In this document: positions 1-54,596 of the stretch, in pieces | Position numbering within the stretch: the stretch's first letter is position 1 | How the letters are laid out: each line of letters opens with the position of its first letter | Source of the DNA: Laspinema olomoucense D3b | Lineage (GTDB): Bacteria > Cyanobacteriota > Cyanobacteriia > Cyanobacteriales > Laspinemataceae | Reading direction: 5' to 3' | Assembly: GCF_025370785.1 (NCBI RefSeq) | Contig: NZ_JAMXFA010000015.1 | Span: 53,945 to 117,944 of the forward strand | Length of the DNA stretch: 64,000 nucleotides | The notes under the pieces: generated by a model | What the model saw: the letters and a program-made list of their open reading frames with translations, nothing else | What the model was told of the DNA's origin: nothing | Databases searched by the model: none | Program-made: the position numbers and the translations under genes

Positions 1-1228
1 GGGAAATCGATGCCAAAGTATGATAGCGATATTCGCTTTCTCGTAGGGCAGCTTCGGCTCGTTTTCGCTCGCGAATATCCTGCGCTAAACAGACGATCGC
101 CTGAATAGGACCCCCTTCTTCTCGCATCACAGAGGCGGAAAAATACACCGGAATAGTCTCCCCATTTTTACTTACAAACTCCACTTCTTTCCGACCAATT
201 AAGCTATTGGCTATTCCAGCTTGAGTTGCTAATTCATCATAGGTAATCTGGTCTTTTAATAGGTTACTAATAGATACTCCTAACAGTTCTTTATCTTCTT
301 CATAGCCTAGTAAAAACAAAGTAGCAAAATTAAAATCGCGAATTGTTCCGTCTGGGTTTAAGACAATTAAAGCATCAATCAGGGATTTAAAAATATTATC
401 AACATAATGCTTGGAGACCGTTTTTTTAGTGAGTTCCTCTGCCATGCTATTGAAGGCATCGGCTAAAATGCCAATTTCGCTGCTACTGTTGATACGAACG
501 CGCACATCTAACTTGCCTTGTCCGATGGCGATCGCTGCATTTTTGAGTTTAATAATCGGTTTAGCAATATTTTCCGCCAGCAGCAGTCCCAAGCTAAGGG
601 CTAAAAGGCCAATTAAAATAATTAAAATTAGGTTAATTAAGTTGGTTTCATTGGTTTGATTTATAATAGATTTTTTTTCTTGTTGCAGCTCATAAATAGA
701 TTGAGAAGTTTGCTGGTTTATTTTTTTAACAAAAATATCCTCTATTTCTTCCAAGTCTTGATAAATCGTAGAAATAGGAAAATCGGTATTTTGAGATTTT
801 AATTTAATAATTTCTTGAGCAATTCGGTCAACCTCTTGGGTAAGTTGCCGCACCTCTTCTAAAAACTCGCGCTCCTCTCCGCTGTCCGGGGTTAGCTGGT
901 CTAATTGAGCGAGCCAGGTTTGGAGAGTTTCATAGGCTTCTTTATATTCCGTTGATTCTCCCTCTACGAAACTAGGGGGATTGTTCCGCTTTTCGCCCAA
1001 CTCCTCTAATTCTGATTGGAATAAAGCGTATGAGGTGACTTCAGTTATCATCCGCAAAGAAGTTATTTTGATTTCCTCTAGGGCAACAAGTCTAGGGACT
1101 TTATGGGTAGAAATTACCTCGATCCTTTTGCTGATGTTTTGGTTTGAACTGACATGAATAATGCCCAGGAGACCAACAACGGCTGTTAACCCCAAAAAAC
1201 TGGAAACCAATTTTGTTTGTAACTTCAT
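1..1228 (-). CDS. Membrane sensor protein with HAMP and PAS domains (C-terminus beyond window)
   Basis: The frame is open from an ATG at 1228 to the left edge, giving 409 complete codons. There is an N-terminal membrane segment (about 8-24), a roughly 160-residue extracytoplasmic helical region, a second membrane segment (about 190-210, rich in I and L), then a HAMP linker (IAKPIIKLKNAA). A PAS domain follows (IFKSLIDALIVLNPDGTI), with its PAC tail and the usual coiled link (DIRERKRAEAALRESEYRY) into a second PAS domain at the edge. This is the layout of a sensor histidine kinase or a GGDEF/EAL protein; the output domain is not in the window, so the enzyme class cannot be given. The helical input region resembles a four-helix-bundle chemoreceptor type. 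No SD is obvious. Confidence 0.8.
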   Translation of the reverse strand, partial: MKLQTKLVSSFLGLTAVVGLLGIIHVSSNQNISKRIEVISTHKVPRLVALEEIKITSLRMITEVTSYALFQSELEELGEKRNNPPSFVEGESTEYKEAYETLQTWLAQLDQLTPDSGEEREFLEEVRQLTQEVDRIAQEIIKLKSQNTDFPISTIYQDLEEIEDIFVKKINQQTSQSIYELQQEKKSIINQTNETNLINLILIILIGLLALSLGLLLAENIAKPIIKLKNAAIAIGQGKLDVRVRINSSSEIGILADAFNSMAEELTKKTVSKHYVDNIFKSLIDALIVLNPDGTIRDFNFATLFLLGYEEDKELLGVSISNLLKDQITYDELATQAGIANSLIGRKEVEFVSKNGETIPVYFSASVMREEGGPIQAIVCLAQDIRERKRAEAALRESEYRYHTLASIS

Positions 1229-1605
1229 CTTTTTTTGAACGAGAAATAAAAATAGAGGGAAATATACGAACCCTTAATCTAGAAATTAGGGCGAGGAATG
1301 AATGGACCTAAGTGGGGTCATGAATCGAGCCGATCGAGGCAGGCGATCGCTGCGGGACCTCCCCCAGTAGACTTACCGGCAAGGCACTTTTAGAGATCAA
1401 CCCAGGTATCGCAGAACCCAGATACAGCTTGGCGATCGCCTCTCCTCTCCCTTGGTTTTGATGCCGAAGAACTCCTCCCTCCATTCAGGAGAACCCCCTG
1501 GGAACCTGAAAACGGGTTCATTCACACTCCCTGACTCAGAAGGGGAGAGGCGGTTGGTGCTACCCTATTCTAAGAGTTCCCGTTTGACCTGTTGGTTTGA
1601 CTAGA
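1229..1605. other. Intergenic region, no gene seen
   Basis: This 377-base spacer separates two divergent genes and should hold both promoters. It contains HIP1 sites and GC-rich text, but no open frame with coding character and no strong hairpin. No clear sigma-70 pair was found. Confidence 0.5.
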
Positions 1606-2400
1606 ATGTTTTTATTTATTTCCAAGCTGCTTCCCGTCTTCATTTACCCCCTCGGACTCAGTTGCTTATTGATGTTGGTTGCATTAGTAACCTTATGGAG
1701 ACGTCCGAAATGGGCATCGGTGCCGATCGCCTCCGCATTGGTAATATTGCTCCTAAGCAGTAATGGATGGGTTGCCAACGGCATCGCGCAATCCCTGGAA
1801 TGGCAGAATTTACCCTCGGGAGAACTCCCCAATGCAGCAGCAATTGTTGTATTAGGCGGCGGCATCAAACCCGCGATTTACCCCCGTCCCAGCGTCGATG
1901 TCAGTGAAGCGGGCGATCGCGTCCTTTATGGGGCCCAACTCTACAAGCAGGGAAAAGCACCTCTAGTCATTCTCTCCGGGGGCCGCATTGAATGGAAAGG
2001 CGGAGGACCCCCAGAAGCAGACGATATGGCTCAAATTGTAGCAGCAACCGGAGTCCCAAACTCAGCGATTCTCCTGGAACCCAATTCCCTGAATACATAC
2101 CAGAATGCGGTGGAAGTCCGGAAACTCCTAGAAGCCAAAAATATTGAAAAGCGCGTATTACTCGTCACCTCCGCCACCCATATGCCGCGATCGCTGCGCA
2201 TCTTCAAACGTCAAGGCATCGATGCCATTCCTGCACCCACGGATTTCCTCGTCTCGCAACAGGAACTCGACGAACTCTCCGAATCCTGGCAATCCGTGAC
2301 CCTGAACATTCTCCCCGATGCCTATCGCCTCCAACAAACGACCCAATCTCTCAAAGAATATATTGGCACAATCATCTATCGCCTCAGAGGTTGGCTGTAA
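1606..2400 (+). CDS. YdcF/ElyC-like DUF218 membrane protein
   Basis: The product is about 264 residues. Two hydrophobic segments (about 5-27 and 36-52) precede a periplasmic DUF218 domain. Family signatures are AAIVVLGGG (about 78-86), VILSGG (about 123-128) and SLNTYQNA (about 164-171), followed by VLLVTSATHMPRS. Relatives such as ElyC and SanA act in envelope and peptidoglycan-precursor homeostasis, but the exact reaction is not settled, so only an envelope role is inferred. The frame also has a TTG three codons upstream at 1597; the ATG at 1606 is preferred because it begins directly with the hydrophobic segment. Neither start has a good SD. It is transcribed away from the sensor gene on its left. 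Confidence 0.85.
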   Translation: MFLFISKLLPVFIYPLGLSCLLMLVALVTLWRRPKWASVPIASALVILLLSSNGWVANGIAQSLEWQNLPSGELPNAAAIVVLGGGIKPAIYPRPSVDVSEAGDRVLYGAQLYKQGKAPLVILSGGRIEWKGGGPPEADDMAQIVAATGVPNSAILLEPNSLNTYQNAVEVRKLLEAKNIEKRVLLVTSATHMPRSLRIFKRQGIDAIPAPTDFLVSQQELDELSESWQSVTLNILPDAYRLQQTTQSLKEYIGTIIYRLRGWL

Positions 2401-2762
2401 GGCGGGCAATTCTCCCGATTTGCGGAAATTGGCCCCCCTGCTGGTCCTCAGAGGCAGATGCTAGAATCAAAAGGAATTGTCCTAGAGCATCGGTACAATT
2501 TTAGAGTCCAGGGACAAAAAACTGAGTTTCTAGCCCAAAATCAGTTATGAATTGCCAAAAATTTTGTACAGAAACCCGGTTTCTAACCCAGGAAGTACCG
2601 ACGCCCTAGAGCATCGGGATTGAGCTTAGAAAGCGGGTTGTTTTATAAAATTCAGGCATTTTTTGTAGCCCCGTCGAACAGAAATTTCGTTTTTAGTCCC
2701 TGGGATTAAATATTAACCCAAAAGCCCTGGGGCGATAAAAAAAGATTTAGGTAATAATAATT
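2401..2762. other. Intergenic region with palindromic repeats
   Basis: No gene is seen in 362 bases. It carries one perfect copy of the dispersed palindrome AGAAACCCGGTTTCT at 2570-2584 and degenerate relatives around 2525 and 2628, with the phrase 'cgccctagagcatcgg' occurring near two of them. Confidence 0.6.
2570..2584. repeat. Dispersed palindrome AGAAACCCGGTTTCT
   Basis: This is a perfect 15-base palindrome (odd centre). The same element recurs at 27536, 27588, 32929 and, in degenerate form, 7835, 17289, 31047, 34204 and 37313, always between genes and often within the larger context CCAGGGACAAGAAACC...GGTTTCTAACCC. Confidence 0.8.
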
Positions 2763-2990
2763 ATGATGCTTCCCAACGAGTTTCCCCAAATTGCGCCCAT
2801 TCCCCAAGATGTGGCGGAAAATTTAGAATCGGCGCAAGTCACTCGCCAATTTTATCACGAACTAGAATATCGTCAAGCCTTTGACGGGTATTGCCAATGG
2901 TACTACCAAACCGCAGAATGTCACCGCAAAGAGTTGCAAAAAATGCGGGGTGATATTAATATTCTAGGCTGGTTTACCCGCCGAAAATAA
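2763..2990 (+). CDS. Hypothetical cyanobacterial small protein
   Basis: A 75-residue soluble protein, rich in Q, Y and E, with no signal peptide or membrane segment. No domain was recognised. The mid-protein stretch with YHELEYRQAFDGYCQWYYQT and the closing WFTRRK look like coding sequence rather than noise, and no competing frame exists here. The start could be either of the adjacent ATG codons (2763 or 2766). There is no strong SD; the leader is AT-rich. A long hairpin follows the stop. Function is unknown; a regulatory or assembly role would be a guess. Confidence 0.55.
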   Translation: MMLPNEFPQIAPIPQDVAENLESAQVTRQFYHELEYRQAFDGYCQWYYQTAECHRKELQKMRGDINILGWFTRRK

Positions 2991-3005
2991 CAGGGAAACG
3001 GTTAA

Positions 3006-3037
3006 ATTAGCAATTAGCGGTCTTGCTAATTGCTAAT
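3006..3037. terminator. Perfect hairpin between convergent genes
   Basis: The arms ATTAGCAATTAGC (3006-3018) and GCTAATTGCTAAT (3025-3037) are perfectly complementary around the 6-base loop GGTCTT. It lies between a plus-strand gene ending at 2990 and a minus-strand gene ending at 3073, so it could stop transcription from both sides. There is no T-run, so intrinsic termination is only inferred. Confidence 0.5.
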
Positions 3038-3072
3038 CAGTCAGCGGAGTTTACACCGAGTTAGTTGAGCTT

Positions 3073-3297
3073 TTATTCAAGGGCTTCTATCTCATCTTCG
3101 CGGAAATGGGCTTTAAACTTTTTGTCAAATTGAACGTAGACAGGCAGGTTAGCACTAACGGGTCTCCCCTGCCATTCGGTAACAATGCCTATGACTTCGC
3201 CTTCGTGACCCTGGACATCATAGGGTTGATTGCGATGTTCTGGACTGTGGTAAACGATAACCGACTTTGTGATGCGGACGCGATCGCCAACTTTCAT
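3073..3297 (-). CDS. ftrV: Ferredoxin-thioredoxin reductase variable chain
   Basis: A 74-residue SH3-like beta-barrel protein, the usual length for the variable (alpha) subunit of ferredoxin-thioredoxin reductase in cyanobacteria. The sequence reads like the family from end to end: MKVGDRVRI, then VVYHSPEHRN-type text, GHEGEVIGIVTEWQGRPVSAN, and FDKKFKAHFREDEIE. It forms the heterodimer that passes electrons from photosynthetic ferredoxin to thioredoxin. The catalytic Fe4S4 subunit (FtrC) is not in this window. The ATG start fits the family exactly. It is monocistronic here, convergent with the small gene to its left. Confidence 0.93.
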   Translation of the reverse strand: MKVGDRVRITKSVIVYHSPEHRNQPYDVQGHEGEVIGIVTEWQGRPVSANLPVYVQFDKKFKAHFREDEIEALE

Positions 3298-3436
3298 AGA
3301 GCTCTCAAATTCTAGTGTTCTCTTCTCTTACCGACTGCAAAGTGCAGGGTTTCAGTATCTTATCAAACAGCGTTTCCCTTTGGTCCTTGGTCTTATGTCG
3401 TTGGTCGTTGGTCTTATGTCATTGGAGATGGGGGGT

Positions 3437-5353
3437 TTATTCTTGTTGTTGGAAGATTCTTTCGCGCAGTTGGGTGAGTCCTCCTGAGTCGATTTGCCAC
3501 CAGGCGGCAAAACCTACGGCGGCGCTAATGAGGGTGACGCCAACTAGGAGGGCGATGGTTTGGGGGAGAGTTAAGCCGGTGCGATCGCCCTTGGATTGGC
3601 GGCGACGACCCGGGGATGGGTCTTCCTCTTCATAAAGGAGGGCTTTGGACGCATCGGAAAGCTCATCCTCAGATAATCCCGTAGGGGGGAGTTGATTGGG
3701 GTCGAACAGGACCAGTTTTTCTGGGGAAATGCGGCAATAGGAGAGCACCACCGAAACGTTATCGTGACCGTTCTTTTCATTGGCGAGGTCCACCCACCAT
3801 TGGGCCGCTGTTTCTACGGAAATTGCCCCGCTAAACAGATCCTGGGCGCACTCAAACCAAAATTGCTCCACGCGATCATTATCGCTCAATCCGTCTGAAC
3901 ACAGGAGCAGCAACCCATCTTCTTCCAGTAGAAACCGCTGAATCTGGGGGCGCAGTAAGTCCCCTTCTCGGGTTCCTAGGGCTTGGGTGAGCGCCCCACC
4001 ATCTCGGCGGCGGATGGCTTGGGAATAAGGGGCGCGACCGAGGCGGACCTCTCGGGAGGCGACGTCATCATCTACGGTAAGTTGTTGGCAATAGTTGGGA
4101 GTAATCCAGTAGGCGCGACTGTCGCCAATATGAATAACATAGAGTTCATGGGCGTTGGCAAATTCTTGACCACTGGGGGTGGTGACTTTTTGGGGCAGTT
4201 GCAGGGTCATGACTAGGGTGGTCCCCATGCGCTGTCGCAGAGCCCGTCCTTGTTTGTCATTTTGGGCGGCGATCGTGTTGTTGACGACGCGCAGAATAGC
4301 TTCTAATTGTTCGCTGACGACTTCAGGCATGGCGAGGCCCGGTTCTTCAGCGATTTCCCGCATGAGGGCTTGAATGGGCAGTTTGAGGGCTTGGACGGCC
4401 AGTTGACTGGCGACTTCCCCGCCTTCATGTCCTCCGACGCCATCGCAGACAATGGCTAAATGATTAAGCAGGGGATGGGTATGGGGTTTATCGATTTGGG
4501 CGATGTCGTTGAGGGTGGGGTAGCAGGAATCTTCGTTATGGTGGCGATTGGGTCCTGAGTCGCTGACTCCGGCGACGCGCACACGCAGGGGTAATTGGGC
4601 AGTGAGTTCGAGGAGGAGTTGGTTGACTTGAGGGGCGACTGCCTGTATTTCGGCATTGGGACGGCGCATTTGTTTGCCAATCTCTTGGAGGCGATCGCCC
4701 ACTGGGGCAGCCACTTTTCCCGCCCAAGTTAACCAGTGATATCCTAAATCTTGTAAATCCGGTTGGGTAATTAAACTGGCATCGCCATAAAGTTCGCGTA
4801 ACCAGACGCGCGAACCCTGGACCCGGATATTATCGGCTTTGAGTAAACTGGAGGCGACGCCCAATTCTCGTAAGGGTGTCCAGAGTTGCAGAATTTGCCA
4901 TAACCAATAGACTTGGCGGACTGGGGGAGTTTGGGACCAGAGTTCCAACATTCCCGGATAGAGGGTGGCGGTTTTGCTATCAATGGGGACATTCTCCAGT
5001 AATAACAAATTGGCGGCGTTGGGTCCTTCCCCGAGGGGACAAAACCCATAGACCTCGGGAATATGAAGGCGATGGGGATATAATTTAAGGTAGCTCAGAA
5101 TCGCCTCGGGTAATGTCTCTGGAACGAAAGGGGCCAAGGCGGGTTGAGTATCGAGCCAAATTTGGGGACTGACTACGCGGTAGCGATCGCCGATGATCTC
5201 GCCGATGGGATACCGGGCTGCTGCGGAACCCACCGCCCACAAGTAGCGATACAGCAAGGGGGTTTGACAAGCATCACAGAACCGATTTCCTACGGGGTTT
5301 TCGGGCTGGGTACAGGTTGGATTTGGACAATAGAGTGGCTCAGAACTGCTCAT
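3437..5353 (-). CDS. PP2C-type Ser/Thr phosphatase with N-terminal zinc ribbon, pseudokinase-like region and C-terminal membrane anchor
   Basis: About 638 residues. The N-terminus has a four-Cys ribbon (CPNPTC...FCDAC). Residues about 45-255 resemble a protein-kinase fold but lack HRD and DFG motifs. The PP2C domain (about 262-520) carries the metal-binding signatures NEDS, CDGVGGHEGGE, HIGDSRAY, CSDGLSDN and NGHDNVSV. A single hydrophobic segment near the C-terminus (about 600-622) is followed by a short tail, so the phosphatase is probably cytoplasmic and tethered. Its substrates are presumably Ser/Thr-phosphorylated proteins. The start at ATG 5353 is preferred over the upstream TTG at 5368. 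It is divergent from the NfeD/stomatin pair. Confidence 0.88.
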   Translation of the reverse strand: MSSSEPLYCPNPTCTQPENPVGNRFCDACQTPLLYRYLWAVGSAAARYPIGEIIGDRYRVVSPQIWLDTQPALAPFVPETLPEAILSYLKLYPHRLHIPEVYGFCPLGEGPNAANLLLLENVPIDSKTATLYPGMLELWSQTPPVRQVYWLWQILQLWTPLRELGVASSLLKADNIRVQGSRVWLRELYGDASLITQPDLQDLGYHWLTWAGKVAAPVGDRLQEIGKQMRRPNAEIQAVAPQVNQLLLELTAQLPLRVRVAGVSDSGPNRHHNEDSCYPTLNDIAQIDKPHTHPLLNHLAIVCDGVGGHEGGEVASQLAVQALKLPIQALMREIAEEPGLAMPEVVSEQLEAILRVVNNTIAAQNDKQGRALRQRMGTTLVMTLQLPQKVTTPSGQEFANAHELYVIHIGDSRAYWITPNYCQQLTVDDDVASREVRLGRAPYSQAIRRRDGGALTQALGTREGDLLRPQIQRFLLEEDGLLLLCSDGLSDNDRVEQFWFECAQDLFSGAISVETAAQWWVDLANEKNGHDNVSVVLSYCRISPEKLVLFDPNQLPPTGLSEDELSDASKALLYEEEDPSPGRRRQSKGDRTGLTLPQTIALLVGVTLISAAVGFAAWWQIDSGGLTQLRERIFQQQE

Positions 5354-5628
5354 AATCTCTGCGTGCAATGACAGTATGAAAAGAAGTCGATCGTTCCTGG
5401 CGATCGGTCCAAAGCCAGCCTACACTGGTTGTAGCTACTCCAAACAGCCTCGACAGTTACAGTGCCGCCAGTCGGGGAACGCCAATGGCGAGATTGATGG
5501 GATTGGATGGACCAAGGGTCCTGGATTGGCGAGGAAGACGCCATTCATTTTATCCCGAACCCCGTCAAATCGGCGATCGCGACCGGAACACAATCTCGTA
5601 ATCTATCTTAACCTTGGAAGAAGACGCT

Positions 5629-6102
5629 ATGGCACTTGACCCCATCTCTGCCATTCTCCTGTTTTTCAGCCAGCTTAATCCGGCGGTTTTATGGTTAGCA
5701 GTTGGCATCATTCTCTGTGGGATGGAACTGGTTCTCCCCACTGCCTTTGTGGAGTTTTTGCCCGGAGTCAGCGCCTTAATTGTGGCGGGACTCTCTTTAT
5801 TTATCCCGAATTTTTTCATTCAGGTGGTGTTATGGGTGGGACTCTCTGCTGCCTTTATTGTGCTGTCTAGGCGGTTTTTGTCCCAGCAAAAAATTCCCCG
5901 GTCCCTCGCGGAGGCACAGGAGGCGCAAACCTTAACCGCAATTCCTCCAGGAGAGGCGGGACGGGTGATCTACGATGGGAACTCGTGGCGGGCTAAATGT
6001 TCAGATCCCGAACAGGCGATCGCCCCCCATCAACCTGTGTTCGTTGTCGGACGCCAAGGGAATACTTTGATTGTCATTCCGGAGCATCTTTTACAGTCAT
6101 AA
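5629..6102 (+). CDS. NfeD family membrane protein
   Basis: About 157 residues: three hydrophobic segments (about 18-95) followed by a C-terminal OB-fold domain (about 105-157) with the pattern GEAGRVIYDGNSWRAKC...VVGRQGNTLIVIP typical of NfeD proteins. These pair with stomatin/SPFH proteins in membrane organisation and quality control, and the SPFH partner follows directly. The ATG at 5629 is chosen because GGAAGAAG lies 6 bases upstream; a TTG at 5614 is less likely. This is the short NfeD form without the serine-protease domain. Confidence 0.88.
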   Translation: MALDPISAILLFFSQLNPAVLWLAVGIILCGMELVLPTAFVEFLPGVSALIVAGLSLFIPNFFIQVVLWVGLSAAFIVLSRRFLSQQKIPRSLAEAQEAQTLTAIPPGEAGRVIYDGNSWRAKCSDPEQAIAPHQPVFVVGRQGNTLIVIPEHLLQS

Positions 6103-50435: not shown

Positions 50436-53400
50436 TCAAAAATCCAACCCCCCAAAGGGATCATCCTCTACATCCACATCATGGGGACTCTCTACAAATC
50501 CCCCCATTTCCTCCTCAGAACTGGGAGTTTGCACATCCCAGGTGTGGCTAAATTCTGCCTCAATTGCCCGACCCGGACGCACAGCCTCTGGGTCATCGGG
50601 AAGGCTGATTAAGGTCCCATTAAAATGGTTACTAAATCGTTGAGCCGCCCGCATGACCTCATCATCATTAGACTCTTCACCCCGGGGGATATCCCGTCTC
50701 CCTGGCGCTCCAACGGACAGCGGAGGGCGGTTTTCCGGCGCACTACCCGTTTCAAATTGGGGGTTTTGAGGGGGGGATTGATAGGGGGAGTTTTCGCGAT
50801 TTACCGGGCTTTGTGGCGTCGAATTCACCTGTCCATTGCCCGCAGGAGTAGCCGGGGGTTCCATCCGGGTGGAGGGGGTTTCGGAATGGCTAGGGGCGAT
50901 CGCCCCAGAAGCCGGAGGAGGTCCGTCCCCAGACACCTGTATCACCACCTTGACTCGGATATTAAACGCCTTAAAAAAGGCTGCTTCCACCTCCGACACC
51001 TTACTTTGCGCCATCTTAAACAGGTTCGGTGAGCGAATGGCAATCTGAGCTTGATGGTTACTGAAGCCAATCAGCCGTCCATGTTGCTGCAACAGCGCTT
51101 TGCAGCTCAAAGACAGGTATTCCACCAAAGTTTGCCAAGTTTGTTCCAGATTGCCACTCGGTTCTAAAGCCGATGGTTCCGGGTTCCCAGACCCCTGAAT
51201 CGATGGCGATGGCGGGGGAGAGGCAGGGCGATTTTCCTCGGGAGAGACTGCGCCAACGTTCCTCCCCTCGTTCCTCCCCTGTACTGGGGGAGACTGAGGG
51301 ACATTCTCAACAGAGGGAGGACGTGCAGAGGTTCTCCCCGGTGATGCCGCATTCCCAGCGCCTTGACTGGATGTTTCTTGCCGTCCCTGAGTTGGTGTAA
51401 TTAAAGCCGAGGGTAATAATCCCAACAGAGTTACTTCTAACCATAAACGAGGCTGAGTGGTATTTTTAATTTGGGCCTCGCTGCTGCGTAAATGTTGTTG
51501 TCCAGCTAAAATAGTCGGCATTTTCCATTGTTGAGCCACTGCACATAACTGTTCCCAAGTCGGAGGGGTAACGGCGACTAAATCCGGGCGATGGGGTGCC
51601 GTGTGAGCAATTAATAAATCCCGATAAAACCCGGCCAAATTTTGTAAAACAATCAGGGGTTCTCGACCCCGATTCATCAATTCTCGTGCTTTATCCAGGA
51701 CTTGTTCTGCATTATTTGCAGCGATCGCCTCTAACAACTGAATCAAATCTCGCTCCGGGACCGACCCCACCAAATCCCAAACCCGCTCTACGGTAACCTG
51801 TTCTTCCAATAACGAAAGCTGATCCAGCAGACTTTCTGCATCCCTGAGTCCCCCCTGAGCAATTTGAGCCACAGTCAAAACCGCTTCATCGCTGATATTA
51901 ATAGTTTCATTGCCTGCAATATGCTTCAAATGCTGAACCATTGAAGCTACAGGAATCCGGCGAAAATCAAATCGCTGACAGCGAGAAATAATCGTCGGTA
52001 AAACTCTTTGGGGGTCGGTTGTGGCTAAGACAAACACCACGCGATCGGGTGGTTCTTCTAAAGTTTTGAGCAATGAATTAAAAGCAGCCGTACTCAACAT
52101 ATGGCAATTATGAACTAACAGTCCATTTGCCACAAAGTTATGATGAGTTTCTACTTCAATATCGTAAACTTTAGCTGGAGATGCCATTTCGACTGATTCG
52201 ACCTTCTCCAAACTTGTAATCCATTGATGGGATTGAATAGCTTTGGAGTTCGTCCACGAACTTTCGGGTGGTATCTGCGTTGAGTTTAATGTAAGGGTAT
52301 GTTTTACTTCCATCATCTTTTCTGGAAGTGTAAAACATGATTTTGGCTGGATATCCGCAGTCTTTAAGCCAATCGGCAATGAGTTGATTTTCTTCGACAG
52401 AGTATCCTTCTGTATGCAGTTGAATGGATGGGCTGCCTTGAGAAATACTGAGGGATCCATCATCCATATAGAACCAAGCCAACCCTTCTGGTGTAATTTG
52501 CTTGAGCCACTCATTAGAAACCCGCTTTTTTCTACCTTGGGGTCTAACTGATTCAAAAACTGCTGGGAGTTGGGGATGACAACGGGTCTGGCAACAGACG
52601 GAGAGATATCCATATCCTTGGTTGGGTGCCATTCGGATTTGGGGTTGCAGTGCTGCAAGACGGGAGGCTTTGTATTCCATCCATTCTCGTTGAGGTTCTC
52701 CATGAGTCCAAGACAATCTAGGAAATCGACTGTATTGGTTGGGGTAGGTAATGCAGCCATCTCCAAGCAAGGTTCCGTAGATAAGCCCCAGTGTGTCGGC
52801 TGACAGAAGTTCGGCATTAGCCAAAAACTTTTCCGTTCTTTTATCCCACTGCCCATGTCCTTTTTTGTATGGATGTCTCTTCCAGTGGGAATTGATTCCG
52901 ACAACAGTTGAGGGAGTTTTGCGAGTAAGCAGGTAGTTAGGAATATCGAGTTGTTCTCCACAGCCGCAGGCACAGAATGGTCTACAGTATTCCAGTTCTG
53001 CGAGCTTATCTGCCAAGGTTGCGAGCTTGTAATGGTTTTGCTTAGTTGGATGCTTTTCCCAGTAGCGTTGGACGTATTCCACGCTGGTTTTTTTGGCCAG
53101 ATTTGGTATTTCCAATTTTTCCCCGCATCCACAGGCACACAGGGGTCTAAGTTCTTCCAACGCTGCGAGTTTGCTATTCCAAGGGGTGGATTTACAGCGG
53201 GGGTGATGGTTCTTTTTGTAGGTGTATTGATTCCAGTATTTTTGGATAGTGTCAATACTGGCATTATTTTTGAGGTAAGACTCTGGAACTGTAAGTCTGG
53301 CTCCACAGCCACAGGCACAAAGGGGCCAGATAGATTCAAGCTGGGTGAGGGTACTTTCGCGGCGATCGCGCTGTTTAAAGTTTTCTGGCTCAGGGAAGGC

Positions 53401-54596
53401 GCAAGAATGTTCATTCCCGGTTTCACTTTCCCGGCAGCTATCCAGCCGTTTTCGGTCCGAATCAGATGGTTGGCGGTGCATCGGATTTCTCGATTACCTG
53501 TTTTAATAATCAGTGTTTGTCGTTCTCCCCGTTCTAGCCAGCGGAGGACTTTTTTCCATTCCCAGTTCCCGTTCGATTCGTTATAACTGAGAACCTGTTG
53601 GTTTTGCAGAGAAGGGTCATCAATTCTCATCAACCCCTCAGCAGTTTGCACCAGGGTATCACCCGTTAAACATTCATCAATAATGTAAACTTTTTGGCGA
53701 CATTGTACGGGGGCAAATTGCGCGCGTTCAATGAGTTCACGGATGTTATCAACCCCGGTATTGCTGGCGGCGTCAATCTCAATGGTGTCTAACGAAGTGC
53801 CTCTGGCAATGGTGCGACAGACTTCGCATTCACCGCAGGGGGTCTCGGTGGGACCGTTGGAGTTGAGGCAGTTGAGGGATTTGGCGAGAATCCGGGCGCT
53901 GGACGTCTTGCCGGTGCCTCTGGGTCCAGTAAATAAATAGGCGGGTGCGATTCTGTTTTGGCGAATCGCATTGGTTAGGGTGGTGGCGATCGCCTCTTGT
54001 CCCACCAAATCCGCAAAGGTTTGGGGGCGATATTTGTGATGTAGCGGTTCGTATGGCATGGATGGGGCGAAAACTTTTTGATTACCTGTTAAACTTTTGC
54101 TGTAGGATTCCTGACTAAGCTCTCCAGAATCCCCTTCAAGTGGGGGGTCAAAAATTTTTGTACTACTCTGATTCTTTTTTCCCTTGGCATAAGCCTTCGC
54201 TAGCCTGTCAGCCCGCTCATTTTCTGGATGTCCAGCATGAGCTTTGATATGCTCCCAAGTGACGTGATTTCCCGTAATTTTTTCCAATTCTTCCCACAAT
54301 TCTTGATTCGCTACTGGTTTTCCATCTCCAGTTTTCCATCCTCTTCTTTTCCAACCGGGTAACCATTCAGTTATGCCTTTAAGGAGGTAGTCACTATCTG
54401 TTTGGATATGGACTGGTTTAGTAGTCGATAGGTGGCGCAATCCTTCGATAGCTGCCATTAATTCCATACGATTAGAAGTAGTCTGAGGATCGTGACCCCC
54501 AATTTCTTCTACTGTGCCGTCACGAATAATAATTGCAGCCCAGCCCCCAGGCCCTGGATTACCCATACATGAGCCATCAGTAACAATGCGAATCAT
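50436..54596 (-). CDS. dnaX: RNase HI-DnaX fusion: DNA polymerase III subunit gamma/tau with intein
   Basis: 1,386 codons. Residues 1-140 are a complete RNase HI (catalytic D7, E45, D67, D130; TDGSC, MELMAAI, TDSDY). A polar linker (141-179) leads to DnaX, whose own ATG (M180, base 54059) lacks an SD. DnaX shows HHKYRPQTF, Walker A GPRGTGKT (224-231), zinc cysteines C243/C254/C257/C260, Walker B VYIIDE (303-308) and SRCQRFDFR. The intein (309-830) splits IIDE from CHML. After splicing, about 865 residues would remain, with a Pro/Ser-rich linker and a tau-type domain (about 1143-1215). It loads the sliding clamp; the RNase domain could remove primers. Confidence 0.93.
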   Translation of the reverse strand: MIRIVTDGSCMGNPGPGGWAAIIIRDGTVEEIGGHDPQTTSNRMELMAAIEGLRHLSTTKPVHIQTDSDYLLKGITEWLPGWKRRGWKTGDGKPVANQELWEELEKITGNHVTWEHIKAHAGHPENERADRLAKAYAKGKKNQSSTKIFDPPLEGDSGELSQESYSKSLTGNQKVFAPSMPYEPLHHKYRPQTFADLVGQEAIATTLTNAIRQNRIAPAYLFTGPRGTGKTSSARILAKSLNCLNSNGPTETPCGECEVCRTIARGTSLDTIEIDAASNTGVDNIRELIERAQFAPVQCRQKVYIIDECLTGDTLVQTAEGLMRIDDPSLQNQQVLSYNESNGNWEWKKVLRWLERGERQTLIIKTGNREIRCTANHLIRTENGWIAAGKVKPGMNILAPSLSQKTLNSAIAAKVPSPSLNLSGPFVPVAVEPDLQFQSLTSKIMPVLTLSKNTGINTPTKRTITPAVNPPLGIANSQRWKNLDPCVPVDAGKNWKYQIWPKKPAWNTSNATGKSIQLSKTITSSQPWQISSQNWNTVDHSVPAAVENNSIFLTTCLLAKLPQLLSESIPTGRDIHTKKDMGSGIKERKSFWLMPNFCQPTHWGLSTEPCLEMAALPTPTNTVDFLDCLGLMENLNENGWNTKPPVLQHCNPKSEWHPTKDMDISPSVARPVVIPNSQQFLNQLDPKVEKSGFLMSGSSKLHQKGWLGSIWMMDPSVFLKAAHPFNCIQKDTLSKKINSLPIGLKTADIQPKSCFTLPEKMMEVKHTLTLNSTQIPPESSWTNSKAIQSHQWITSLEKVESVEMASPAKVYDIEVETHHNFVANGLLVHNCHMLSTAAFNSLLKTLEEPPDRVVFVLATTDPQRVLPTIISRCQRFDFRRIPVASMVQHLKHIAGNETINISDEAVLTVAQIAQGGLRDAESLLDQLSLLEEQVTVERVWDLVGSVPERDLIQLLEAIAANNAEQVLDKARELMNRGREPLIVLQNLAGFYRDLLIAHTAPHRPDLVAVTPPTWEQLCAVAQQWKMPTILAGQQHLRSSEAQIKNTTQPRLWLEVTLLGLLPSALITPTQGRQETSSQGAGNAASPGRTSARPPSVENVPQSPPVQGRNEGRNVGAVSPEENRPASPPPSPSIQGSGNPEPSALEPSGNLEQTWQTLVEYLSLSCKALLQQHGRLIGFSNHQAQIAIRSPNLFKMAQSKVSEVEAAFFKAFNIRVKVVIQVSGDGPPPASGAIAPSHSETPSTRMEPPATPAGNGQVNSTPQSPVNRENSPYQSPPQNPQFETGSAPENRPPLSVGAPGRRDIPRGEESNDDEVMRAAQRFSNHFNGTLISLPDDPEAVRPGRAIEAEFSHTWDVQTPSSEEEMGGFVESPHDVDVEDDPFGGLDF
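52171..53481 (-). CDS. LAGLIDADG homing endonuclease encoded in the -1 frame inside the dnaX intein
   Basis: 436 codons on the same strand as dnaX, entirely within the intein and one base out of phase. It has three repeated cysteine modules, each beginning CACGCG (residues 55-60, 115-120, 170-175) and followed by about 35 residues with a W-x-x-(H/Y)P or YTYKKNH-like end. A two-motif LAGLIDADG domain follows: LGLIYGTLLGDG (231-242) and GLAWFYMDDG (333-342). An in-frame TAA lies 15 bases before the ATG at 53481, so expression needs internal initiation there (only a weak GAGAAA upstream) or a -1 shift from dnaX. The ORF ends at 52171, where block F begins. Confidence 0.9.
   Translation of the reverse strand: MHRQPSDSDRKRLDSCRESETGNEHSCAFPEPENFKQRDRRESTLTQLESIWPLCACGCGARLTVPESYLKNNASIDTIQKYWNQYTYKKNHHPRCKSTPWNSKLAALEELRPLCACGCGEKLEIPNLAKKTSVEYVQRYWEKHPTKQNHYKLATLADKLAELEYCRPFCACGCGEQLDIPNYLLTRKTPSTVVGINSHWKRHPYKKGHGQWDKRTEKFLANAELLSADTLGLIYGTLLGDGCITYPNQYSRFPRLSWTHGEPQREWMEYKASRLAALQPQIRMAPNQGYGYLSVCCQTRCHPQLPAVFESVRPQGRKKRVSNEWLKQITPEGLAWFYMDDGSLSISQGSPSIQLHTEGYSVEENQLIADWLKDCGYPAKIMFYTSRKDDGSKTYPYIKLNADTTRKFVDELQSYSIPSMDYKFGEGRISRNGISS
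53373..53379 (-). promoter_or_regulatory. Candidate -1 ribosomal frameshift site T TTA AAC
   Basis: In the dnaX frame the codons are ACT TTA AAC (T406, L407, N408), which is the X XXY YYZ arrangement required for tandem -1 slippage. Shifting gives TTT AAA and then CAG, residue 37 of the endonuclease frame, ahead of all its conserved modules. Downstream, CGCG-ATCGC-CGCG could form a short stem 2-3 bases after the site. No strong internal SD lies upstream. Function is inferred. Confidence 0.5.

Follow-up and report, generated by a model that had tools for sequence, protein, structure and literature searches.

Out-of-frame ORFs for predicted homing endonucleases inside the DnaX inteins of cyanobacteria and inside inteins of phages

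An intein of the textbook kind is one protein with two functions, and the bifunctional inteins carry their homing endonuclease in frame, within the spliced protein. Endonucleases that are translated apart from the host product are familiar from the open reading frames (ORFs) of group I introns and from free-standing LAGLIDADG genes. A 1998 article by Gorbalenya, “Non-canonical inteins,” may have noted an out-of-frame case in Synechocystis. In the available part of a paper published in 2025, that article is cited beside a remark on overlapping reading frames, and the paper itself describes the ShiLan domain, a hidden out-of-frame HNH endonuclease in phage methylases (PMC11855218). The DnaX intein of Synechocystis PCC 6803 (Ssp DnaX) is known, and its splicing domain splices (PMC3443213, PMC3620165); the available sections of these two papers do not state the frame of its endonuclease. 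Within the accessible portions of open-licence papers we found no description of an out-of-frame endonuclease inside an intein, and the corresponding portions of PMC8899391, PMC10274946, and PMC5009743 contained nothing bearing on such endonucleases.

The locus discussed here lies in a stretch of 64,000 nucleotides (nt) of the cyanobacterium Laspinema olomoucense D3b, to which we refer as the window; all features below are on its minus strand. A frame of 1386 aa with no stop (50436..54596) encodes DnaX (DNA polymerase III gamma/tau) and an upstream RNase HI domain. It contains an intein of 522 aa (52107..53672), flanked by YIIDE and CHM, a site in dnaX that we take to be the Walker B motif. 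When the dnaX frame was run against Pfam, PF14890 covered both halves of the intein, with the cut-off passed (E=2.1e-13). The N-terminal splicing half (53379..53672) includes Cys1 and a block B with TxxH and was placed by conserved residues and by a model with pLDDT mostly 87-95; the C-terminal half (52107..52229), which reads VYDIEV...HN and is followed by Cys+1, was placed by conserved residues and the model as well. C1, T66, H69, H521, and N522 are invariant in 23 aligned rows and Cys+1 is present, as in class 1 Hint splicing domains.

Between blocks B and F, and in the -1 frame relative to dnaX, there is an ORF of 436 aa (52171..53481) that begins at block B (intein nt 191, counted from 0) and has its stop directly before block F. 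A preliminary description of this DNA had reported the splicing blocks in the dnaX frame, a 436-codon LAGLIDADG ORF between blocks B and F in the -1 frame, and a dnaX frame that stays open over the stretch; both frames were confirmed. The LAGLIDADG family search that it had proposed returned LAGLIDADG_2 (PF03161) for the ORF, with the cut-off passed (E=5.9e-21). Alignment A1 located two LAGLIDADG-type motifs, LGLIYGTLLGDG (52756..52791) and GLAWFYMDDG (52456..52485). In an AlphaFold model of the endonuclease frame the mean pLDDT is 76.7 over 436 residues, with ten-residue blocks from 221 to 420 at 82-98, and the best matches of the model in the PDB are I-WcaI and I-SceI (E about 1e-10), with PI-SceI also among the matches. 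A C-terminal nuclease domain with an I-WcaI/I-SceI-like fold is thus modelled with confidence, and the ORF has the features of a LAGLIDADG homing endonuclease, namely, two motifs with acidic residues and a matching predicted fold. It lies where the endonuclease of a bifunctional intein lies, between blocks B and F, and is not in frame with the splicing domain. The N-terminal part of the endonuclease includes a stretch (52957..53319) with three CACGCG repeats, at endonuclease residues 55-60, 116-121, and 170-175; most relatives in alignment A1 have two and Pseudanabaena has one, and because the repeat number differs in this way, the overprinted stretch appears able to grow and shrink in both frames. 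PF20137 (DUF6527) matches over the same stretch (E=5.3e-7).

Several other features of the genome deserve mention. The RNase HI domain (54189-54587) shares a single open frame with DnaX, and no RNase HI match was found in the dnaX frame of a close relative (L038). When part of the DnaX C-extein was used as a query against the genome, one match was obtained besides this dnaX, a weaker one (40% over 81 residues), so no second dnaX was seen. An intein in GyrB (L228, G000:C40:26500-33000, 1722-5327, minus strand) has LAGLIDADG_3 in frame, the ordinary arrangement. The DnaE locus (L229, G000:C51:10500-18500) consists of three pieces (3-3785, 3725-4561, and 4545-6068). The first is a frame that has one in-frame intein and ends at a stop, the second a LAGLIDADG_3 ORF of 279 aa in a different frame, and the third a C-terminal DnaE piece with the C-terminal half of an intein. 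The arrangement resembles a split intein whose halves are separated by an endonuclease gene.

The out-of-frame layout is shared by every cyanobacterial DnaX intein in which we found a relative of the endonuclease. A class-wide search of 388 genomes gave relatives in 29 of them. At 28 loci, in 27 genomes including that of the window, the relative is inside a dnaX intein that occupies the same insertion site, always in the same -1 phase and with zero stops in the dnaX frame (28/28); the remaining two genomes (L033 and L035) have distant endonuclease relatives elsewhere than in a dnaX intein. A scan of named genomes with the endonuclease alignment gave 65 loci, 54 of them cyanobacterial. These 54 are all dnaX inteins, all in the same phase and all with a stop-free dnaX frame, and they overlap the 28 loci, so that the two samples are not additive; contig ends truncate the loci L044, L077, and L019. 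The most frequent intein length is 1290 nt, and several copies have stops or deletions in the endonuclease frame while the dnaX frame is still open. Since the scan selects for the endonuclease and not for its phase, in-frame copies would also have surfaced. The preliminary description had named, as evidence against its reading, raw reads with indels that put the endonuclease in frame, or relatives with a broken dnaX frame in this stretch; among the cyanobacterial loci examined, none has the endonuclease in frame and none has a broken dnaX frame there. Two metagenome gene calls, P0046 and P0052, were considered as in-frame counter-examples and rejected, because partway along each sequence the reading passes from the dnaX frame into that of the endonuclease; we took them to be gene-caller joins, apparently the product of a frameshift-tolerant caller. 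The 11 other loci, 10 from Bacillota and one from Lokiarchaeota, are without a dnaX intein. Those of Bacillota (L092-L098 and L100-L102) are distant relatives in open frames of 200-342 aa, gave no match to the halves of the DnaX intein, and look stand-alone.

Phages have inteins with the same layout. A viral scan with the endonuclease protein of the window as single query found nothing, and a scan with alignment A1 found relatives. For a second viral scan we used an alignment of the A1-scan members and relatives, and the best 80 of the 277 relatives were kept; the viral counts that follow refer to these best 80 of 277. At 32 loci, with 27 distinct endonucleases, the nuclease is enclosed by a longer ORF in a different frame; at 19 it lies in a frame that is open over at least 500 aa, and the other 29, in shorter ORFs, are unclassified. 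Of the 27 distinct endonucleases, 20 have the +1 phase and 7 the -1 phase. The host frame has no stop in any of the 27, compared with means of 2.7-23.6 stops in synonymous shuffles, which retained each endonuclease protein and its codon usage and which reached zero for two rows (L122 and L125). In the +1 class, T before AA, AG, or GA occurs in 0/1263 cases, versus 1227/3605 elsewhere. Pfam, run on 24 of the 27 host ORFs, gave an intein domain at E<=0.01 in 22, of which 11 are above the curated cut-off, and at that threshold none in L135 and L141; most of the 24 have ResIII, DEAD, or UvrD helicase domains or terminase domains, and no host family was found by Pfam in L124, L130, L135, and L187. 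Among the 19 in-frame candidates, ten were checked and 8 have an intein or Hint match; as these in-frame phage candidates also have such matches, the same endonuclease family uses three registers. One of the 27 distinct out-of-frame cases is from Xanthomonas phage FoX3, whose intein-bearing helicase (L195, NC_055837.1) carries the name “head morphogenesis” in its RefSeq record and “putative DNA helicase” in that of GenBank. A scan of plasmids gave one distant match, in an RNA ligase.

The junctions of these inteins are candidates obtained by regular expression. DE before the first Cys is seen in DnaX and in 6/7 of the -1 phage rows (L142 being without a resolved junction), and HN followed by CH is seen in DnaX and in 5/7 of them; in the +1 class 10/20 have a candidate junction with DE or EE before Cys or Ser and the others were unmatched by the pattern (all from the best 80 of 277). 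The insertion sites, where resolved, appear to lie mostly after DE or EE and to be Walker B-like. A family tree was calculated for 46 nuclease domains, including 14 of the 27 viral out-of-frame rows, the rest having been dropped by a motif filter or as identical domains. All -1 rows in the tree (16 dnaX and 6 phage) form one branch, with support of 98/88, and dnaX is a group inside it (98/92). The +1 rows occupy at least two well-supported places, among them a trio of DEAD helicases and a trio with two terminase matches, and judged by this tree the +1 phase arose separately from the -1 phase. Transfer of the -1 class between cyanobacterial dnaX and the DECH-box helicases of phages is probable, the codons of the site (DE, then CH) being alike, and a switch of host gene by way of similar insertion-site codons is plausible. 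Within the cyanobacteria, trees of the endonuclease and of DnaX were compared for 41 of 44 intact copies, those with full extein flanks, and they agree in most groups, which suggests that horizontal homing is rare or old. There is one supported conflict: L038 (Laspinema) is with L039 in the nuclease tree (100/99), and in the DnaX tree L039 is instead with Leptolyngbya L068 and two others (97/81).

We think it very probable that the middle of the intein is read twice, as a stop-free linker in the dnaX frame and as a separately translated endonuclease in the -1 frame, and we propose the following homing cycle. The long dnaX product would splice the intein out, and ribosomes would start the endonuclease at an ATG overlapping two codons of block B, those for Gly and Trp. 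As a free enzyme, the endonuclease would then cut intein-less dnaX near the Walker B codons, repair would copy the intein and endonuclease together, and the endonuclease could later be lost through deletions in multiples of three, leaving a mini-intein. Expression of the endonuclease would in this way be uncoupled from the host protein.

The proposed start is an endonuclease-frame ATG located at nt 227 or 230 of the intein, present in 53/54 named copies, where it overlaps the Gly-Trp codons of the splicing half and lies 36-39 nt further in than the ATG of the window at 53481. The window (at 53443..53445) and its 94%-identical Laspinema relative L038 have CTG there, and the ATG of the window is 36 nt upstream. 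The position of the ORF at block B, as described earlier, was confirmed, but the ATG at 53481 is probably lineage-specific. The Gly codon at the start is GGA in 52/53, compared to 127/387 in the C-extein, and the codon at the upstream Arg position is AGG or AGA in 46/54, compared to 117/769 Arg codons in the C-extein. A Shine-Dalgarno-like core (GGAG, GAGG, or AGGA) precedes the first ATG in 27/53 cyanobacterial copies and in 11/27 of the viral ones from the best 80 of 277, versus 11% of 1464 other ATGs, and a stop in the endonuclease frame is found 6-60 nt upstream of the ATG in 52/53. The conserved ATG, the choice of codons, the Shine-Dalgarno-like cores, and the upstream stop fit internal initiation. 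A search with the N-terminal splicing half gave 30 loci, of which 18 have no endonuclease match; these are mini-inteins, with an intein of 387-588 nt, all in frame. All 18 also have GGA and AGR (AGG or AGA) at the start position, so these codons are not proof of use, and, because the mini-inteins retain other endonuclease codons too, the losses may be too recent for them to serve as a control for the start codon. By eye, the two ends of the endonuclease are still recognizable in 14 of the 18 (among L198-L224), brought together by internal deletions of varying extent that keep the dnaX frame.

Programmed -1 frameshifting on dnaX, which would yield a fusion of N-extein, intein N-terminal half, and endonuclease, is an unlikely way of making the nuclease. 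It would suit a nuclease in the -1 frame, and slippery-type heptamers (X_XXY_YYZ, in the dnaX frame) are found at intein nt 165-380 in 33/54 loci, but the other 21 loci have none there, and the two commonest, AAATTTG at 305 and TTTAAAG at 353, are inside the endonuclease ORF, whose own residues may explain them. An ATG is conserved in 53/54, and slippage by -1 cannot serve the phage relatives in the +1 phase (20/27, from the best 80 of 277).

Selection on both frames was compared by dN/dS, as the preliminary description had proposed. Across 110 pairs at 80-98.5% identity among 44 intact copies of the 54 (at least 270 codons, complete intein), the endonuclease frame has a median dN/dS of 0.18 and the splicing halves one of 0.09, whereas the bases of the endonuclease, when read in the dnaX frame, give 1.18. 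The value is lower in the endonuclease frame than in the dnaX frame in 110/110 pairs, which share members and are non-independent, and it exceeds 1 in the dnaX frame in 77/110. These figures show purifying selection on the endonuclease frame and weigh against the view of the endonuclease as a dead relic whose open -1 frame was inherited by chance, which we regard as highly improbable. The splicing half of the dnaX intein is patchy, occurring in 50/388 genomes of the class at E<=4.2e-30, and only 27 of those 50 have an endonuclease or a trace of one, about half being without a detectable copy; this, and the stops in the endonuclease frame of some copies, would be expected of a relic. However, 44/54 named copies pass the filter for intactness, and in all 16 rows of alignment A1 the acidic residues of the motifs, D241, D340, and D341, are unchanged.

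The dnaX frame, for its part, is not conserved as a protein over these bases and is merely kept open, as the dN/dS values indicate, and the way in which it is kept open can be seen in the codons. In the -1 layout, each dnaX codon takes its first two bases from positions 2 and 3 of an endonuclease codon and its last base from position 1 of the codon that follows. Leu and Val codons ending in A or G occur in 0/233 cases before A, compared with 109/202 before C, and Met occurs before an A-initial codon in 0/109 (ORFs of at least 700 nt). Stop avoidance through codon choice is strict. Synonymous shuffles of the endonuclease ORF of the window, which preserved its protein and codon usage, gave a mean of 5.1 dnaX-frame stops and at least one stop in 500/500; the figure of 1 in 10^9 offered earlier for a chance opening is thus overstated for one locus. 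The claim behind it, that the second open frame is not due to chance, is carried instead by the family: 23/23 loci (those of the 28 with ORFs of at least 200 codons) are without a dnaX-frame stop where shuffle means of 3.1-7.8 are expected, although a small share of the shuffles (0.2-1.8%) was stop-free as well for 7 of these loci. In the third frame the number of stops is about equal to that in the shuffles. Both frames are constrained beyond chance, as in an overlapping gene pair, and the earlier account of a dual-coded endonuclease in a host gene that must stay readable is borne out by the phase in 54/54 loci, the dN/dS of 0.18, and the avoidance of stops through codon choice.

That the peptide in the dnaX frame is itself a selected functional domain, with the endonuclease frame secondary, is very hard to credit. 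It is never interrupted in the loci examined, but its median dN/dS is 1.18, it changes fastest at the second codon position (entropy 1.12), and it is absent from the mini-inteins. In the model of the dnaX frame, residues 1-98 and 482-522 form a splicing domain predicted with confidence, and the 383 residues between them, at pLDDT near 30, make up a middle stretch in which no Pfam family was found and which, on this prediction, is likely an unstructured linker. It had been described as a low-complexity peptide, a term that the composition, ordinary over this stretch in the 54 relatives, does not bear out. We give practically no weight to a pair of sequencing or assembly indels disguising an ordinary in-frame bifunctional intein, an error that we reject because 54/54 relatives from different assemblies, and 28/28 in the overlapping sample, show the same phase and an open dnaX frame, and the dN/dS and codon data are those of real dual coding.

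Taken with the phage cases, intein middles that are read twice probably amount to a second architecture of inteins, with two frames and two separate proteins, that has arisen repeatedly and gone largely unseen. The splicing protein would carry only a stop-free linker, and the nuclease would be dosed independently. The -1 phase would have arisen once, joining cyanobacterial DnaX to the phage DECH-box helicases, and the +1 phase two or more times elsewhere, including in DEAD helicases and terminases. Such inteins would have been largely overlooked because annotation keeps the longer frame or labels the nuclease a hypothetical protein, a blind spot seen in FoX3, whose nuclease is not annotated, and in the NCBI-named cyanobacterial copies, which are labelled hypothetical proteins. 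If we are right, the two functions share DNA and not protein, and splicing would be unaffected by the evolution, loss, or dosage of the endonuclease. The set gives about eighty natural cases of dual coding (54 cyanobacterial and 27 viral, the latter from the best 80 of 277) in which one frame is constrained only to openness, a clean model for the persistence of overlapping genes, and it suggests a route by which inteins jump between unrelated ATPases with similar insertion-site codons.

Set beside known systems, the intein of the window has, like the PI-SceI-type bifunctional inteins, Hint halves with a LAGLIDADG endonuclease between blocks B and F, but the endonuclease is in another frame and would be excluded from the intein protein unless a frameshift occurred. 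It shares its host protein with the Ssp DnaX intein; splicing is known for the Synechocystis copy, according to the available part of PMC3443213, and is predicted here. With intron ORFs and free-standing LAGLIDADG genes it would share the separate translation of the endonuclease, but intron ORFs need no second open frame, unlike an overprinted intein, whose host frame must remain open for protein splicing. ShiLan, as presented in the accessible part of its description (PMC11855218), is alike in having an endonuclease out of frame in an insertion with the host frame open, and separate translation from a GTG inside the insertion was proposed there. It differs in that it is an HNH endonuclease without a splicing domain, found mainly in phages, in an insertion thought to be retained in the host protein (PMC11855218), whereas the locus of the window has LAGLIDADG_2 together with PF14890.
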